Positions 49,456 to 57,456 of a stretch of DNA of 57,456 bases are shown in pieces. The translations under genes and the position numbers were made by a program. Source of the stretch: Magnetococcales bacterium HCHbin5. GTDB lineage: Bacteria > Pseudomonadota > Magnetococcia > Magnetococcales > Magnetaquicoccaceae. Location: the NCBI GenBank assembly GCA_002753505.1, contig PEAG01000013.1, positions 1 to 57,456 of the forward strand, written 5' to 3'. Each line of letters begins with the position of its first letter. The stretch's first letter is position 1. The notes below the pieces were generated by a model, which made no database searches, was not told the DNA's origin, and was given only the letters and a program-made list of their open reading frames with translations.

Positions 49456-50856
49456 TCAGTGCTGTGCCTGGACAATCTGCTCGATGAGATCCCGAAGGGC
49501 GGCCAAAGAGCTGGGTTCACCCACTTTTTCCAAAACCGGCATCTGCTCGCTGCAGATGCGCAAGGCCTCATCCCGCTCGCCGCGCCGGTTTAATATGCGT
49601 GCCATCAGGGTCATGGCAAATGCATATCCGAGTACATGGCCCGTTTTTTTTATAACCGGTATCTGCTCCCTGCAGAGGCGCAGGGCTTCATCCAGTTCGC
49701 CGCGCAGTGCCCATATCTCTGCCATCATGAGCAACGCAGCAGCACGACCAAAGGTGTCGCCCGCCTTTTCGTAGAGCGGAATTTGCGCCTCGCAGATACG
49801 GAACGCCTCGTCCGGTTCGTCACGCAACAGGTGTATGTGCGCAAGATGGCCCATGGCAACGGCGCAAGAGTGGCTGTCATCCGATTGTTCGTAGAACGGA
49901 ATTGTCTTCGTCAGAAGCTGCCAAGCCTCGTCCGGTTTGCCAAAATTATACAGGTATAAAGCCGCTATCCGGTCGAGGGCCTTGGCATGCCCGAGGCCAT
50001 CGTTGAGTTTTTGGTAGACCGGCAGCACCTCATCCCGCAGCAAGGCAAGGGCGGTGGTCGACTCGCCGCGCCATCCCAGCAACTTTGCCATGGAGAGAGC
50101 CGTTGAGGCGGCAGAGGAGGGGTCATCCTGCTGTTCAAACAGGGTGCGGGCTGCACGCAGGTCAGCCCAGGCATCGTCATAATCCCCCACCTGTTGACGC
50201 AACTCCCCCCGCTCCCGCCAGAGCGCAGCGACTGCCCAGGAGGGCTCGGGATGGCTGTCCAGATGGCTGTTGATGGCGGCGAGACGTTGTAAAACCGCCG
50301 CATGTTCCAGGTTGGATCGATCCACCGACGCAAGGGGGGGGAAGGGCATGTCTGCTTGTGGCGCGCCGGGCCGGGAAAAGGAGAATACCGCGCTGCGCCA
50401 TGCCCACAGATCCGGGGCCTCCAGGGCAAGGGTGCGCAGTTCGGAACCACTCAGCCAGACCAACAGCGGGCGGGCCGCCTGGGCAGCCAGCATCTCCCGC
50501 ATGCCATTGAGCAGCCCGCAAAAAGCGGTCCCCTGCTCCAGTCGCAACCATGGCCCCAGTGCCAGCAGGTGAACAGGAAGGGGCTCCGCCGGCAGGGCCG
50601 CCAGGGCATCCAGGATGGGGCCTGAACTGACCCAATCGGGCTGCATCCACAACCGGAGAGCCGGATGCTTCATATGTTCCAACCGTTGGATAATGGCCTC
50701 CTGATAGCGGTTCTCCCCATATTCCAGCAAAACCAGGACAAAACGACCCCCAGCCGCCCCCGTCAGCAGGCGGTCCAACTGCAACAACGCGCCGCTATGT
50801 TCGGCAGAGACCGGGGGTAACGGCTCCGGGTCAGGCTGGGGGGGCAGCGGCAGCAT
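49456..50856 (-). CDS. TPR-repeat protein with a conflict-system-like N-terminal domain
   Basis: A 466-residue protein. Residues about 20-170 form a globular domain ending in a RPLLVWLSGSEL - APDLWAWRSAVFSF pattern that I have seen in bacterial STAND-like TPR proteins. The C-terminal part (about 195-460) is six or more roughly 40-residue TPR units with the consensus RGExDEALRLCxEQIPVxxK. It overlaps the upstream ATPase gene by 26 bases, so the two are coupled and probably act together, the TPR array sensing or scaffolding. I start at ATG 50856; a GTG-type extension to 50913 is possible. The precise function is unknown. Confidence 0.75.
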   Translation of the reverse strand: MLPLPPQPDPEPLPPVSAEHSGALLQLDRLLTGAAGGRFVLVLLEYGENRYQEAIIQRLEHMKHPALRLWMQPDWVSSGPILDALAALPAEPLPVHLLALGPWLRLEQGTAFCGLLNGMREMLAAQAARPLLVWLSGSELRTLALEAPDLWAWRSAVFSFSRPGAPQADMPFPPLASVDRSNLEHAAVLQRLAAINSHLDSHPEPSWAVAALWRERGELRQQVGDYDDAWADLRAARTLFEQQDDPSSAASTALSMAKLLGWRGESTTALALLRDEVLPVYQKLNDGLGHAKALDRIAALYLYNFGKPDEAWQLLTKTIPFYEQSDDSHSCAVAMGHLAHIHLLRDEPDEAFRICEAQIPLYEKAGDTFGRAAALLMMAEIWALRGELDEALRLCREQIPVIKKTGHVLGYAFAMTLMARILNRRGERDEALRICSEQMPVLEKVGEPSSLAALRDLIEQIVQAQH

Positions 50857-52159
50857 GGGACCGATAGCCTGGCAACAGTTGCACCACCGGATGGGACCGC
50901 CACCAGTGGTCATTATACTCCAACAGTGCCAGTATGTTGAATAATTTGATCAGCTCTGGCCGCTCTCCCTCCTCTTCCTCGCCCGCATCGATACGGTGCA
51001 GCAGGGCATAATCCTTTGCCTCCAGCAGACGGCGAAAATCCGACGCCGCGCTGGCCACCGCCTTTTCAGCCGCCGCCCGATCGATGCGGTACTGGCGGGC
51101 CGTTTGCCAAGCCGAGCTGAGGAGTCGCACCAGGTCACGGGGATGCCCCCCGCAGTGGTCGATCAAATAGTCCACACTCTCCATGCTGTCAAACCATCGA
51201 AGTGGTACACGTCGCAGGACCAGATCCTGCAGGGTGGCGCGCGCCACCGGATCGCCGGGGCTGCCATCCCTGTTGTACAGCTTGATCATGGGCAGACGGT
51301 ACAAGGCACTGTAGTGCTGCTGCAGGGCACTGCTTTCAAACAGCATCTGCATGGGGGCACCATAGATAAAGTTGGCGCGGATTTGCTGGAGTTGATGGAC
51401 ATCCTCGATAAAAAACCGGCAGCTGTCCTCGCTGTTCAGTTTGTCGGTGCCGTCCACGATAAACAGCAGACCGGCTCCCAAGTTGTTTTGTTGCAGCAGG
51501 CGGGTGGCCTCGGCAATCAGGATGTTGAAGGTCGTCGCAAATTCCGCAAACGAGTTGCGCACCACCTTCCGCAGCTCATCCTTGTAAGAGGCATTATACT
51601 TGAAGGCGTTGGTCAACTTGGCCAGCAGACTGCCGATCAGGGGCAGATCAAAACCGGCCTGGGCGGTCGTCACCAGCTCTGTGGACAATGTTTTGTCCGT
51701 CATGCGGGTCTCCACATGCTGCACAAACCAGTTGTGCAGCCGCTCCAGATGGACCGACGCCACCGTGAGCCCGTTTGCCTGGAGGGTTGCGCAGAGCCGC
51801 TCGGCACACGCCAGCAACAGATCCACATATTGCAGATTTTGGGGGTCGAGTTCGCTGCGGGCATCCAGCAACAGGACGTGGTAGCAGTTAGGGGTATGCA
51901 GATTCCGCTGCAAGCGGCGCAGTTCGGTGCTTTTGCCACAACCGATATGACCCAAAAAGAGCAGATAGCGGCGGTCCGGGGCCTTCAGCAGCCGCAAGGT
52001 TTGGGGATCGACACCCAGTCTCTGGTAGAGCCCATGAAAGCTGAAGGAGCCCCGGGCCTGGGCGGTATCCACAAAAAGCTCCGAGTCGGGTGACAATGCC
52101 TGGTTGGGTTCCAGATTGTCGCCGAGGCTCAGAAACTCTTGTGCTTCATCGTCGTTCAT
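50831..52159 (-). CDS. P-loop NTPase (AAA/STAND-like)
   Basis: A 442-residue ATPase. Walker A is GHIGCGKS (residues 70-77), Walker B ends LLFIVDGTDKL with Asp236, and a sensor/winged-helix-like segment GGHPRDLVRLL (337-347) is of the kind that follows the ATPase core in STAND and ORC-like proteins. The N-terminus has no obvious effector domain, and no membrane segment is evident. It overlaps the TPR gene, so the pair could be a split STAND-type sensor-effector. A housekeeping signalling role is also possible. The start has AAGAGAG about eleven bases upstream. Confidence 0.75.
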   Translation of the reverse strand: MNDDEAQEFLSLGDNLEPNQALSPDSELFVDTAQARGSFSFHGLYQRLGVDPQTLRLLKAPDRRYLLFLGHIGCGKSTELRRLQRNLHTPNCYHVLLLDARSELDPQNLQYVDLLLACAERLCATLQANGLTVASVHLERLHNWFVQHVETRMTDKTLSTELVTTAQAGFDLPLIGSLLAKLTNAFKYNASYKDELRKVVRNSFAEFATTFNILIAEATRLLQQNNLGAGLLFIVDGTDKLNSEDSCRFFIEDVHQLQQIRANFIYGAPMQMLFESSALQQHYSALYRLPMIKLYNRDGSPGDPVARATLQDLVLRRVPLRWFDSMESVDYLIDHCGGHPRDLVRLLSSAWQTARQYRIDRAAAEKAVASAASDFRRLLEAKDYALLHRIDAGEEEEGERPELIKLFNILALLEYNDHWWRSHPVVQLLPGYRSHAAAAPPA

Positions 52160-54617: not shown

Positions 54618-55289
54618 ATGGCTGTCAAAATTGCAGAAAAAATAGTGGCCTGCGAGGTGGTGCAGGAGGATGCGGCTCCGGCTCCGACGGCGGCTCCGGT
54701 CAAGGCGGCGGAAAAGCCGGGGGTACTGCCGCTGGTGCGGGAGGAGGAGGGTAATGTCATCCACATGCAGCCGCTGATGAAGCGGCCGGTTGAGCTGCGG
54801 GGCTCCACCTACAAGATAAAGACCCCGCTCTCTGAGCATGCCTTGTATGTGACCATCAACGATGTGGAGGTCAACGGCAAGCGTCGGCCGTTCGAGATAT
54901 TTATCAACTCGAAAAACATGGAAAATTTTGCCTGGATTGTGGCGTTGACCCGGGTGATTTCGGCGGTTTTCCGGCATGCGGGGGATGCCACCTTTCTGGT
55001 GGAGGAGTTGCGTTCCGTGTTTGATCCCCGGGGGGGCTATTTCAAGCCGGGCGGCAAATACATGCCCAGTCTGGTGGCCGAGATCGGGGAGTGTCTGGAA
55101 CGCCACATGACCAACATTGGCATTTTAAAGCCCCTGGAAATTTCCGAAGAGTTGCAGGCCAAGCGGGTGGTTGCCAAGGAGGGGGGATTGAGCGGCGGCA
55201 GCCTCTGCCCCAAATGCAGCCAACTGGCAGTAGTGCGACTGGACGGCTGCGACACCTGTCTGGAGTGTGGATATTCCAAGTGTGGATAG
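54618..55289 (+). CDS. nrdJb: Class II ribonucleotide reductase accessory subunit (TSCPD domain)
   Basis: A 223-residue protein matching NrdJb, the separate C-terminal part of a split class II reductase. After a Pro/Ala-rich N-terminus, residues about 60-170 form the TSCPD-type domain (LYVTINDVEVNGKRRPFEIF). The C-terminus has a cysteine cluster, CPKC and CDTCLECGYSKC, likely a zinc site or the thiol pair that re-reduces the active site. It is 56 bases downstream of nrdJa, with AGAGGAG near the ATG. The next gene starts 12 bases later but has very different base composition. Confidence 0.92.
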   Translation: MAVKIAEKIVACEVVQEDAAPAPTAAPVKAAEKPGVLPLVREEEGNVIHMQPLMKRPVELRGSTYKIKTPLSEHALYVTINDVEVNGKRRPFEIFINSKNMENFAWIVALTRVISAVFRHAGDATFLVEELRSVFDPRGGYFKPGGKYMPSLVAEIGECLERHMTNIGILKPLEISEELQAKRVVAKEGGLSGGSLCPKCSQLAVVRLDGCDTCLECGYSKCG

Positions 55290-55301: not shown

Positions 55302-56684
55302 GTGAAATTTCACTTCAAAAACATCGGGCTCATTAAAAATGCCTCCGTTGAACTGGGCGATCTGACCATATTGGCGGGTCCGAACAATACCGGAAAAACC
55401 TATATCTCCTATACCCTGTATGGATTTTTTGAAACATGGATTGATCATTTTTCTTTGGGAGATGAAATACAACGAATTGTTGAAGAACTGAAATCGACCA
55501 GACACGCAAAATTGGATCTAAGCAGGGTTGATTTTGAGAAAATATTTTCCGATTCGACCAAACAATATACTCTTCGTATGTATGAAATTTTTAGTGCCAG
55601 AAGGGAGGAATTTCAGAGGGCTGAGTTTCTCATGGAGGTCGAGAGTCCGCTTAAGGTTTTAACAAACAATAAAAAAGAACGATCAATAAAAGGGAATTTT
55701 AAAGGGGCTGTACTGTTGATTAAGTTGCACTTTGTAGGTGATGCCCCATTCATCAGTTTTAGCCTGGATGACAAGATTGACAACTTGATACTGGATGATG
55801 GTTTTATAAGTCACGGGATTGCCAGGATTATTTTCCCCTCATTTTTCTCGGATTCCTATATCTGTGTTTCTGAACGGCTTGGCATCCCTCTTTTTTATAG
55901 AGATTTAGATATACAAAAGATTGAGATGGTTGAACAACTGCAAAAATTGACAGATGACCCGGAATCGAGAGATCCGATCGTCGGTTTCTCCAAAATACTC
56001 AAAGGAATACGCACACGATATGCACTGCCTGTGAGAGATAATATTGACTTTATCCGTTCTATTCCAGACTTTATTAAAAATGACAGCTCAACAGGTATTG
56101 CTGAACTGAATGAATATATTATATCGATGACGGGTGGGGTTTATCGTCACAAGCTAGAAGAGGGACTGCTGTTTTCCTCCAAGCCTTACAGCAGAGCCAA
56201 CAAATTTTCTTTGACAAGCAACCTGTGGTCGTCATCAGTCAAATCCCTGTCATACCTGTTTTTTTATCTTAAGCATGTCGCCGAATCAGGTCATCTGCTC
56301 ATCATTGACGAGCCGGAAATACACCTCACACCCAAAAACCAGATCATTCTGGCTAGGCTGTTGGCTGCCTGTGTTGGCAAAGGGATCAAGGTTCTGGTCA
56401 CAACCCACAGTGATTATCTGATTAAAGAGTTTAATAATTTGATCATGCTGCACAACTTGTCAGAAAATGACCGTACCGATTTTTTGAGTCAGCCCAAATC
56501 TCCCTATAAACCCAGTGAAATGCTTAATCCTGACCGGGTCAGGGCGTATGTTTGCCAGAAAGGGGGGGTCACTCCCTGCCCGATAGATCAATATGGCATC
56601 AGCGTAGCTTTCATGGATGAGGCCATCCATGAAATCAACGAAACCGCCAATGACCTGATGAACCGGATAGACAGGGAGCATTGA
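55302..56684 (+). CDS. RecF/OLD-like AAA ATPase of a putative defence pair
   Basis: A 460-residue ATPase of the ABC-like AAA_15/AAA_21 group, members of which drive many anti-phage systems. Walker A is GPNNTGKT (26-33), Walker B is LLIIDEPEIHLTP with Asp336 and Glu337, and the switch histidine is His369 in TTHSDYL. The roughly 300-residue insert between them is helical and shows no TOPRIM motif, unlike OLD or GajA proteins. The C-terminal QYGISVAFMDEAIHEINE tail is typical of such stand-alone ATPases. The start is GTG with AGGGGG upstream. The gene is clearly more AT-rich than nrdJb just before it, suggesting horizontal transfer. Confidence 0.85.
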   Translation: MKFHFKNIGLIKNASVELGDLTILAGPNNTGKTYISYTLYGFFETWIDHFSLGDEIQRIVEELKSTRHAKLDLSRVDFEKIFSDSTKQYTLRMYEIFSARREEFQRAEFLMEVESPLKVLTNNKKERSIKGNFKGAVLLIKLHFVGDAPFISFSLDDKIDNLILDDGFISHGIARIIFPSFFSDSYICVSERLGIPLFYRDLDIQKIEMVEQLQKLTDDPESRDPIVGFSKILKGIRTRYALPVRDNIDFIRSIPDFIKNDSSTGIAELNEYIISMTGGVYRHKLEEGLLFSSKPYSRANKFSLTSNLWSSSVKSLSYLFFYLKHVAESGHLLIIDEPEIHLTPKNQIILARLLAACVGKGIKVLVTTHSDYLIKEFNNLIMLHNLSENDRTDFLSQPKSPYKPSEMLNPDRVRAYVCQKGGVTPCPIDQYGISVAFMDEAIHEINETANDLMNRIDREH

Positions 56685-56686
56685 AA

Positions 56687-57322
56687 ATGTCTGCCGAGGA
56701 CTACTTGAGAGAGATACTCGCGCCGCGGGTAATCGTTGGCGGAGACACCAGGGATCCGAAGAGAACTGTGGTTAAACTTCAAGAAAAATTGCAACCCAAA
56801 AATAAAATTTTACTCTACGTGCCACCGGGTTCCGTTGTCTTTCACCTGGATACGTTTCCGGCAAAATCGCCTTTTCTGAACAGTAAAAAAAATTTACACA
56901 AAGGGTGTGACTATGTCGTTTTCTGTCCATACCGGGAAAAATATTGGTTTGTTTTGATCGAACTGAAATCCAGTGATACCGCCGGTGCGGAAATACAACT
57001 CAGTTATTCGATCGCCTTTGTTCGCTATCTGCGTGAATTGATCTTCCTGCATGAGGGAGATGGCTGCCGATATGAATTGACTTGCCTTTTGTTCTCTTCG
57101 GCACCCAAATTTACCAAAAAAACACCCACCCATCCAGGAAAAGATCGCTTTCGTGTCTACCGCATGCCAAGCAATCCCGATCGTTTATCCTATTATGCAT
57201 TTCCCTACTCTCAAACATTTAACTTGGACCTATTATTGGATTCTGAACCACAAGCCAGCAAAAGCCATCAACATGATCTGTTGAATGCACAGCGATGCTA
57301 TTATAAAGAGCCAGAGCCATAA
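56687..57322 (+). CDS. Putative PD-(D/E)XK nuclease partnered with the ATPase
   Basis: A 211-residue protein with no family I can name. Its middle reads CDYVVF, then about 13 residues, then FVLIELKSS, then EIQLSYS: the Asp75...Glu92-x-Lys94 spacing plus Gln104 and Tyr107 fits the PD-(D/E)XK restriction-type nuclease core with a QxxxY-like helix. The ATG comes two bases after the ATPase stop codon, with AGGGAGC upstream, so the two are cotranscribed. It shares the AT-rich composition of the ATPase gene. If the motif is right, this is the effector. An inactive or non-nuclease member of the fold is the main alternative. Confidence 0.6.
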   Translation: MSAEDYLREILAPRVIVGGDTRDPKRTVVKLQEKLQPKNKILLYVPPGSVVFHLDTFPAKSPFLNSKKNLHKGCDYVVFCPYREKYWFVLIELKSSDTAGAEIQLSYSIAFVRYLRELIFLHEGDGCRYELTCLLFSSAPKFTKKTPTHPGKDRFRVYRMPSNPDRLSYYAFPYSQTFNLDLLLDSEPQASKSHQHDLLNAQRCYYKEPEP

Positions 57323-57323
57323 C

Positions 57324-57365
57324 ATGCTCTTTACCGGCCTTGATCATCGTTTCGTCCACTGCCAC
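57324..57365 (-). pseudogene. Possible scrap of a DDE transposase
   Basis: On the minus strand fourteen codons read VAVDETMIKAGKEH, resembling the segment around the first catalytic Asp (the VDET motif) in IS6/IS240-like transposases. A TGA lies a few codons upstream and the nuclease gene end follows immediately, so nothing longer survives in the window. It may mark the edge of the transferred segment. The match is short and could be chance. The remaining bases to the window end (57366-57456) show no gene. Confidence 0.3.
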
Positions 57366-57456
57366 CCCCCATCACGCAGCGAGCAACCGGAGCTGTGAGA
57401 CTGGCTGAGACCGCCGCTTCGCAGGTCTTGCTGGCAAGTCGATCCTATCCAGCAAA

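Follow-up and report, generated by a model that had tools for sequence, protein, structure and literature searches.

What is the two-gene unit that lies close to the end of contig PEAG01000013.1 of Magnetococcales bacterium HCHbin5, and has its kind been described before? The stretch of DNA analysed here (hereafter the window; GenBank assembly GCA_002753505.1, 57,456 nucleotides, forward strand) carries two tandem open reading frames (ORFs), A and B, with B 3' of A at a spacing of 2 bp. An earlier note on the same DNA had described the first as a RecF/OLD-like ATPase and the second, two bases further on, as a small protein with a plausible Asp75...Glu92-x-Lys94 nuclease core, and had proposed that the combination might be undescribed. 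We found that these coordinates hold, and the pairing of a defence-type ATPase with a small PD-(D/E)XK-type nuclease was supported by matches to the defence database PADLOC and by a conserved motif. Judged by its homologues, the pair is of an already described kind, that of the PD-T4-4/PDC-M47 ATPase-nuclease systems. It probably functions as a PD-T4-4-type phage-defence module that forms a subclade of its own.

ATPase and predicted nuclease genes of the module

In PADLOC-DB (2023), A matched the PD-T4-4_A model PDLC04033 with 351 bits (E 3.1e-105, residues 1-454 against profile positions 1-456 of 460) and was also recognized by the AriA (6e-22), GajA (4e-11) and Old (7e-10) models. Pfam returned AAA_15 (3.4e-20) and AAA_21 (1.5e-13), and all Pfam matches at E≤1 belonged to ATPase or SMC families, with no TOPRIM among them. 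The Walker A, Walker B and switch histidine motifs reported in the earlier note are in place (from residues 26 and 332, and at H369, respectively), and a signature-like WSSSVK stretch begins at residue 309. A sequence search of the PDB with A gave weak matches, the best being PtuA (E 0.0024). The predicted model of A had a predicted local distance difference test score (pLDDT) of 67.5, falling below 50 across most of residues 183-312; Foldseek matched it to GajA (E about 2e-7) and PtuA (about 3e-7) at template modelling scores of 0.24-0.38, and structure alignment gave Z values of 11-13 against heads of SMC and PtuA type.

B was recognized by the same two families. Its best PADLOC model was PDC-M47B (2.1e-9), five PD-T4-4_B or PDC-M47B models matched it under 1e-5, and all eight of its PADLOC matches at E≤1 were models of these two kinds. 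No match to B was found in Pfam, in NCBIfam or by sequence search of the PDB. To place B among its relatives we aligned 21 B proteins: that of the window, five from named contigs, ten from genomes of the same phylum and five from plasmids, leaving out a B gene cut by a contig end in genome G005 and the B protein of a Vibrio phage. Identity to the window protein ranged from 16 to 51% across this alignment. At E≤0.001, the PDC-M47B model PDLC04668 recognized 19 of the 21 proteins and the PD-T4-4_B model PDLC04035 recognized 17, the window's included, so that intermediate homologues connect the window protein to both families.

This alignment confirmed that the proposed Asp75...Glu92-x-Lys94 core is conserved. 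All three residues were invariant in five of five homologues, the window's included. In the full set of 21, position 92 was Glu in 17 proteins and Asp in the other four, and the only invariant residues besides the start methionine were E33, D55, D75 and K94, which adds two acidic positions to those predicted beforehand.

An AlphaFold2 model of B, built on six sequences, reached a mean pLDDT of 71.4 and a predicted template modelling score (pTM) of 0.75. It has an alpha/beta core that runs from an N-terminal helix through strands 27-32, 40-45, 50-53, 76-82 and 85-95 to a long helix (98-123) and a strand at 128-137. D75 precedes strand 76-82, E92 and K94 lie within strand 85-95, and the long helix follows the strand with the (D/E)xK motif. 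The best PDB structure alignments were both with McrC (Z 5.9, root-mean-square deviation 3.5, 111 residues; Z 5.7, root-mean-square deviation 4.1, 119 residues), and about 40 of the 50 alignments listed are with what we take to be PD-(D/E)XK enzymes (McrC, BspD6I, Can2, FokI, Bse634I, DdmD, Hjc, Shedu and others). By topology, though with low fold scores, a PD-(D/E)XK fold is likely for B.

The two genes travel together. An alignment-profile search of genome contigs with B retrieved six loci: the pair is present in Candidatus Magnetaquicoccus inordinatus UR-1, on three contigs of Magnetococcales metagenome-assembled genomes (MAGs) and in one Desulfobacteraceae MAG, and a fourth Magnetococcales MAG contig bears a cut B. 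Among 60 relatives, B by itself gave matches in 5. We then ran profiles of both proteins against 398 genomes, a sample that includes near relatives and whose counts are therefore not prevalence figures. The A profile (E≤1e-30) gave 16 matches in 12 genomes; in 15 of these, counting that of the window, a B-type gene follows directly, and the sixteenth (G002:C256) is a 134-residue fragment without a partner at a contig end, perhaps the start that the gene at G002:C177 lacks. The B profile gave ten matches in nine genomes, nine of them (again with the window's) behind an A gene and the tenth (G005:C21) cut by a contig end. Copies of the small protein without the ATPase in non-defence contexts, which the earlier note had named as evidence against its proposal, were not found in these genomes. 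Since homologous pairs occur elsewhere, chance can be excluded as the source of the A-B arrangement. Beside their window-type copy, two of these genomes hold extra copies of the module that belong to the PDC-M47-like clade (G006:C8:33691-35025, L040; G013:C58:23433-24803, L039; G013:C1:11871-13214, L042).

Mobile elements carry the pair as well. The ATPase was found in 24 plasmid records, and all five that we inspected, from Annamia (a cyanobacterium), Bernardetia (Bacteroidota), E. coli, E. albertii and Klebsiella, have a B-type gene; these B genes were reached through the ATPase-based searches, although a direct search of plasmids with B gave none. A single-sequence search of genome contigs with B, a tblastn search of plasmids and an alignment search of viral contigs returned no match at the sensitivity of these searches, and a search of a viral fold library was likewise empty at E≤0.001. 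Three phage records hold the ATPase, and the one inspected, the temperate Vibrio phage 1.202.O (Peduoviridae), has a PD-T4-4-type pair between its repressor and integrase genes (L081:5001-7032). Read by eye, its B protein has the same residue pattern; at the cut-off applied, E≤1e-20, no PADLOC model matched it. On the tiny plasmids pSCU-105-5 (L043) and pKPN6 (L047), of 4.3-4.8 kb and with Rop-type replication genes, a PD-T4-4-type pair is accompanied by few other annotated genes.

Place among known ATPase-nuclease systems

The suggestion that this combination is undescribed did not hold, as PADLOC (2023) has models for both halves of the pair and both PD-T4-4 and WonAB have been published. 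Functional selection in E. coli yielded PD-T4-4 in 2022 among 21 candidate systems, and the PD-T4-4 locus is described as defence-enriched and as lying within an element like an integrative and conjugative element (Vassallo et al., PMC9519451). The system is listed in a review under a PF13175 ATPase and a PD(D/E)XK nuclease (PMC10952713). WonAB, reported in 2025 from the WASA-1 prophage of Vibrio cholerae, is an operon of an OLD-type ABC (ATP-binding cassette) ATPase and a PD-(D/E)xK nuclease that acts by abortive infection, and its authors place it beside PD-T4-4 and 'OLD-ABC ATPase + Novel REase' (PMC12137116). The latter comes from the in silico survey of Krishnan et al., as cited in PMC12137116 and PMC12409358. 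For PDC-M47, a PADLOC candidate, we found no paper under that name in open-licence PubMed Central.

The window pair resembles PD-T4-4 (PADLOC models PDLC04032-04033 for A and PDLC04034-04037 for B) in having two genes in the same order, in the full-length match of A to PDLC04033 and in the match of B to PD-T4-4_B (5.4e-8). Furthermore, the E33, D55, D75, (D/E)92, K94 pattern is common to the window protein and to the plasmid pairs that score high with these models. The E. albertii pair reached 856 bits for A and 354 for B, that of Klebsiella 772 and 309, and that of the E. coli plasmid 410 and 147, and the A protein of the Vibrio phage reached 614; for the enterobacterial plasmid pairs the label PD-T4-4 rests on these PADLOC scores. 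Megablast with the Klebsiella pair hit 1 of 5426 E. coli genomes, on a plasmid at 88%, and did not lead to the E. coli copy that had been tested by experiment. The window protein differs from the enterobacterial B proteins, which have DxK where it has ExK, and it possesses a C-terminal stretch of its own.

A maximum-likelihood tree of 21 ATPase rows, rooted at its midpoint without an outgroup and with the experimentally tested PD-T4-4 proteins outside it, resolved three groups. The first (100/100) has four rows, those of the E. coli, Klebsiella and E. albertii plasmids together with G072. The second (100/99) comprises ten rows, including the PDC-M47-like L032, and PADLOC scores were read singly for two of them, L032 and L034. 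Both groups exclude the window ATPase, which falls into a third (99/98) with four Magnetococcales rows, one of them partial, and the Desulfobacteraceae row; the Bernardetia ATPase, a long row, belongs to none of the three. The window pair is thus set apart from PDC-M47 by the tree, and it resembles that candidate in its profile matches (290 bits of A to PDC-M47A; E-value of B as given above). L032 itself scored 738 bits with PDC-M47A, 534 with PD-T4-4_A and, for its B protein, 196 with PDC-M47B; its high scores with both ATPase families indicate that the PADLOC names PD-T4-4 and PDC-M47 overlap. These comparisons support the placement of the window pair as a third subclade of one superfamily, beside PD-T4-4 and PDC-M47. 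To our knowledge, this subclade has no name so far.

Gabija, PARIS, OLD and Septu share the ATPase superfamily of A, and their nucleases are of the TOPRIM or HNH kind. No TOPRIM nuclease of the type found in OLD, Gabija and PARIS was detected for the window pair, whose B protein has a D...ExK pattern instead. Likewise, the HNH partner of Septu (PtuB) was not found, B being without a Pfam match and having PADLOC matches to PD-T4-4_B and PDC-M47B only.

Insertion site, composition and neighbours

Table 1. Features of the module and of its flanks in the window.
Feature	Position	Strand	Basis
ORF A, OLD/RecF-type ABC ATPase (PD-T4-4_A type), 460 aa, GTG start	55302..56684	+	PADLOC, Pfam, Foldseek
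ORF B, PD-(D/E)XK-type nuclease (PD-T4-4_B / PDC-M47B type), 211 aa, ATG start	56687..57322	+	PADLOC, AlphaFold2 topology, motif conservation
Walker A GPNNTGKT of A, residues 26-33	55377..55400	+	sequence
Walker B LLIIDEPE of A, residues 332-339	56295..56318	+	D336 and E337 invariant in 5/5 aligned ATPases
Switch histidine H369 of A (TTHSDY begins at 367)	56406..56408	+	invariant in 5/5 aligned ATPases
E33 of B, invariant acidic residue	56783..56785	+	21/21 B proteins
D55 of B, invariant acidic residue	56849..56851	+	21/21 B proteins
D75 of B, presumed catalytic Asp	56909..56911	+	21/21 B proteins
E92-L93-K94 of B, (D/E)xK motif	56960..56968	+	position 92 E 17/21, D 4/21; K94 21/21
nrdJb-like gene (TSCPD domain), host gene directly upstream, outside the module, marks the insertion site	54618..55289	+	Pfam TSCPD 1.7e-10
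8-bp target-site duplication of the repeated element after B	57328..57335	+	matched by the flank at the C153 end, next to htpX
Outer 121 bp of the repeated transposon-like element, outside the module; 24-bp terminal repeat at 57336-57359	57336..57456	+	stops at the contig end

On the evidence of its sequence and surroundings, the module is a horizontal acquisition placed between nrdJb and htpX. The two genes are AT-rich, as had been noted before: their G+C content is 42.3%, and the lowest value among 1066 equally long stretches, taken with overlap in 50-base steps across the rest of the contig, is 52.0%. At third codon positions, the G+C fraction is 0.46 in A and 0.44 in B, against 0.74 in nrdJa and 0.73 in nrdJb. 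The gene just before A has a TSCPD domain and is itself preceded by a gene for a ribonucleotide-reductase barrel protein, in keeping with the nrdJb of the earlier note. nrdJb was present in all 12 genomes searched, the window's own included, and in three of three relatives inspected (G002, G003 and G006), out of 11 with nrdJb matches, it is followed by htpX. The htpX gene of G003 lies 67 bp after nrdJb (Pfam Peptidase_M48, 5e-37), and those of G002 and G006 were recognized from the same first residues. In the window genome, A and B come after nrdJb, and contig C153 has at its end an htpX gene 80% identical to that of G003.

The earlier note had also suspected a scrap of transposase beyond B. 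We saw no transposase gene in the 121 bp concerned, which form the outer part of a transposon-like element present in many copies. This element starts 13 bp after B and leaves B intact. Its 24-bp terminal repeat has 26 exact copies in the genome, many of them at contig ends, including those of the window contig and C153. Eight pairs of ends, each made of a left-type and a right-type end, are joined by 8-bp duplications, and for 10 of the 26 copies no partner turned up. The C99 end pairs with the C153 end by such a duplication. Together with the shared terminal repeat, this pairing makes nrdJb, A, B, element, htpX the most likely order of the locus.

In G004 and G006, the pair lies 11 bp behind another gene; the neighbours there are presumably an amidotransferase-like and a receptor-like gene, to go by their first residues only. 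Neighbours that differ in this way across relatives indicate that the module has no fixed place. We also considered a rule by which the module would always follow a host stop codon by about 12 bp, and dropped it because the distances vary.

Elsewhere in the window, upstream of the nrdJ genes on the minus strand (49456-52159), a gene for a NACHT-like ATPase (Pfam 6e-5, below the cut-off) overlaps end to end with a TPR-repeat gene. The former has a weak match to MADS mad8 (2.9e-4), and the PADLOC matches of both are weak or generic; the two are possibly a STAND-type pair.

Proposed mode of action and alternatives

If the pair acts as its relatives suggest, A would most likely dimerise around ATP, sense infection and control B. 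Infection would then lead to ATP-dependent activation of an A-B complex, B would cut nucleic acid, and the infection would be aborted. The metal site of B would be formed by D75, E92 and K94, probably joined by E33 and D55. Between positions 55100 and 57456 we found two sigma-70-like promoters, against 3.8 +/- 2.0 in shuffled sequence, both on the minus strand and none before the module, and three terminators, near the shuffle level (2.5 +/- 1.6). Because no sigma-70-like match precedes the module, its expression may come from transcription that runs on from the nrdJ genes.

WonAB offers the closest description of how such an operon works, and the likeness to it, drawn by description, is that of the same ATPase plus nuclease design. 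According to the WonAB report, both genes are needed, ATPase and nuclease mutants are inactive, and infection halts after the start of DNA replication, with translation arrested and DNA intact (PMC12137116). By analogy, RNA needed for translation appears a somewhat more likely substrate of B than phage DNA.

Several points weigh against a PD-T4-4-type defence module with an action of this sort. The PADLOC matches of B are weak, reaching 35 bits at best, and A reached no more than 229 bits with PDLC04032, the other PD-T4-4_A model, with which the enterobacterial pairs score 410-856 bits. The predicted fold of B is also less firm than its motif: the best Z of 5.9 lies in the range that the alignment tool calls common, and Foldseek gave no hit at E≤0.001 with this model, so that the expectation of a PD-(D/E)XK fold was borne out in topology and not in fold scores. 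Furthermore, no defence island is visible, the neighbours being housekeeping-like in the window, G004 and G006; of the check proposed earlier, whether such pairs recur in defence islands of unrelated genomes, the recurrence stood, plasmids and phage included, and the islands were not supported. Finally, a WonAB-like arrest of translation by B is an analogy. By description, WonB is a protein of 16.1 kDa with its lysine at K71, whereas B has 211 residues and K94, and the nuclease is reported to be distinct in some WonAB-related operons (PMC12137116).

The same defence module could also work by direct cutting, with B cleaving phage or cellular DNA in a restriction-like manner as in Gabija. Most PD-(D/E)XK enzymes cut DNA, the closest structural alignments of the B model are to McrC and restriction nucleases, and the fold of A matches Gabija GajA and Septu PtuA. 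We regard this as a serious possibility that falls somewhat short of probable, as WonAB, of the same design, spared genomic DNA and stopped translation in the published account (PMC12137116). A more specific proposal is that B represents a distinct PD-(D/E)XK branch whose active site comprises five residues (E33, D55, D75, E92, K94), and that it acts as an ATPase-licensed RNase that blocks translation, in a Magnetococcales-Desulfobacteraceae branch whose own trigger and RNA target would set it apart from PD-T4-4 and WonAB. This we hold to be unlikely.

Small plasmids and a phage carry the two genes as a unit, which would also suit an addiction pair of mobile elements, similar to a toxin-antitoxin system, in which A only restrains B and phage defence is a side effect or absent. 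This is improbable, as the gene order and the ATPase type match known defence systems and, for WonAB, simple sequestration is stated to be ruled out, WonB overproduction being toxic only with active WonA (PMC12137116). That A and B are a housekeeping DNA-repair pair of a RecF/Rad50-like ATPase and a nuclease with no immune role, as the SMC and Rad50 heads among the fold matches of A and the housekeeping-like neighbours might suggest, is hardly credible given the patchy distribution (12 of 398 genomes), neighbours that differ between relatives, the foreign base composition, the presence on plasmids and in a temperate phage, and the match to defence models.

For the PD-T4-4-type defence module that we favour, the comparison of 21 relatives shows at which acidic and lysine positions the effector never varies. 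These residues are direct targets for the question of RNA versus DNA cutting, which the WonAB work does not settle (PMC12137116). The pair of HCHbin5 moves from 'unknown' to a named family whose mechanism is open, and it adds to that family a divergent subclade from the Magnetococcales.

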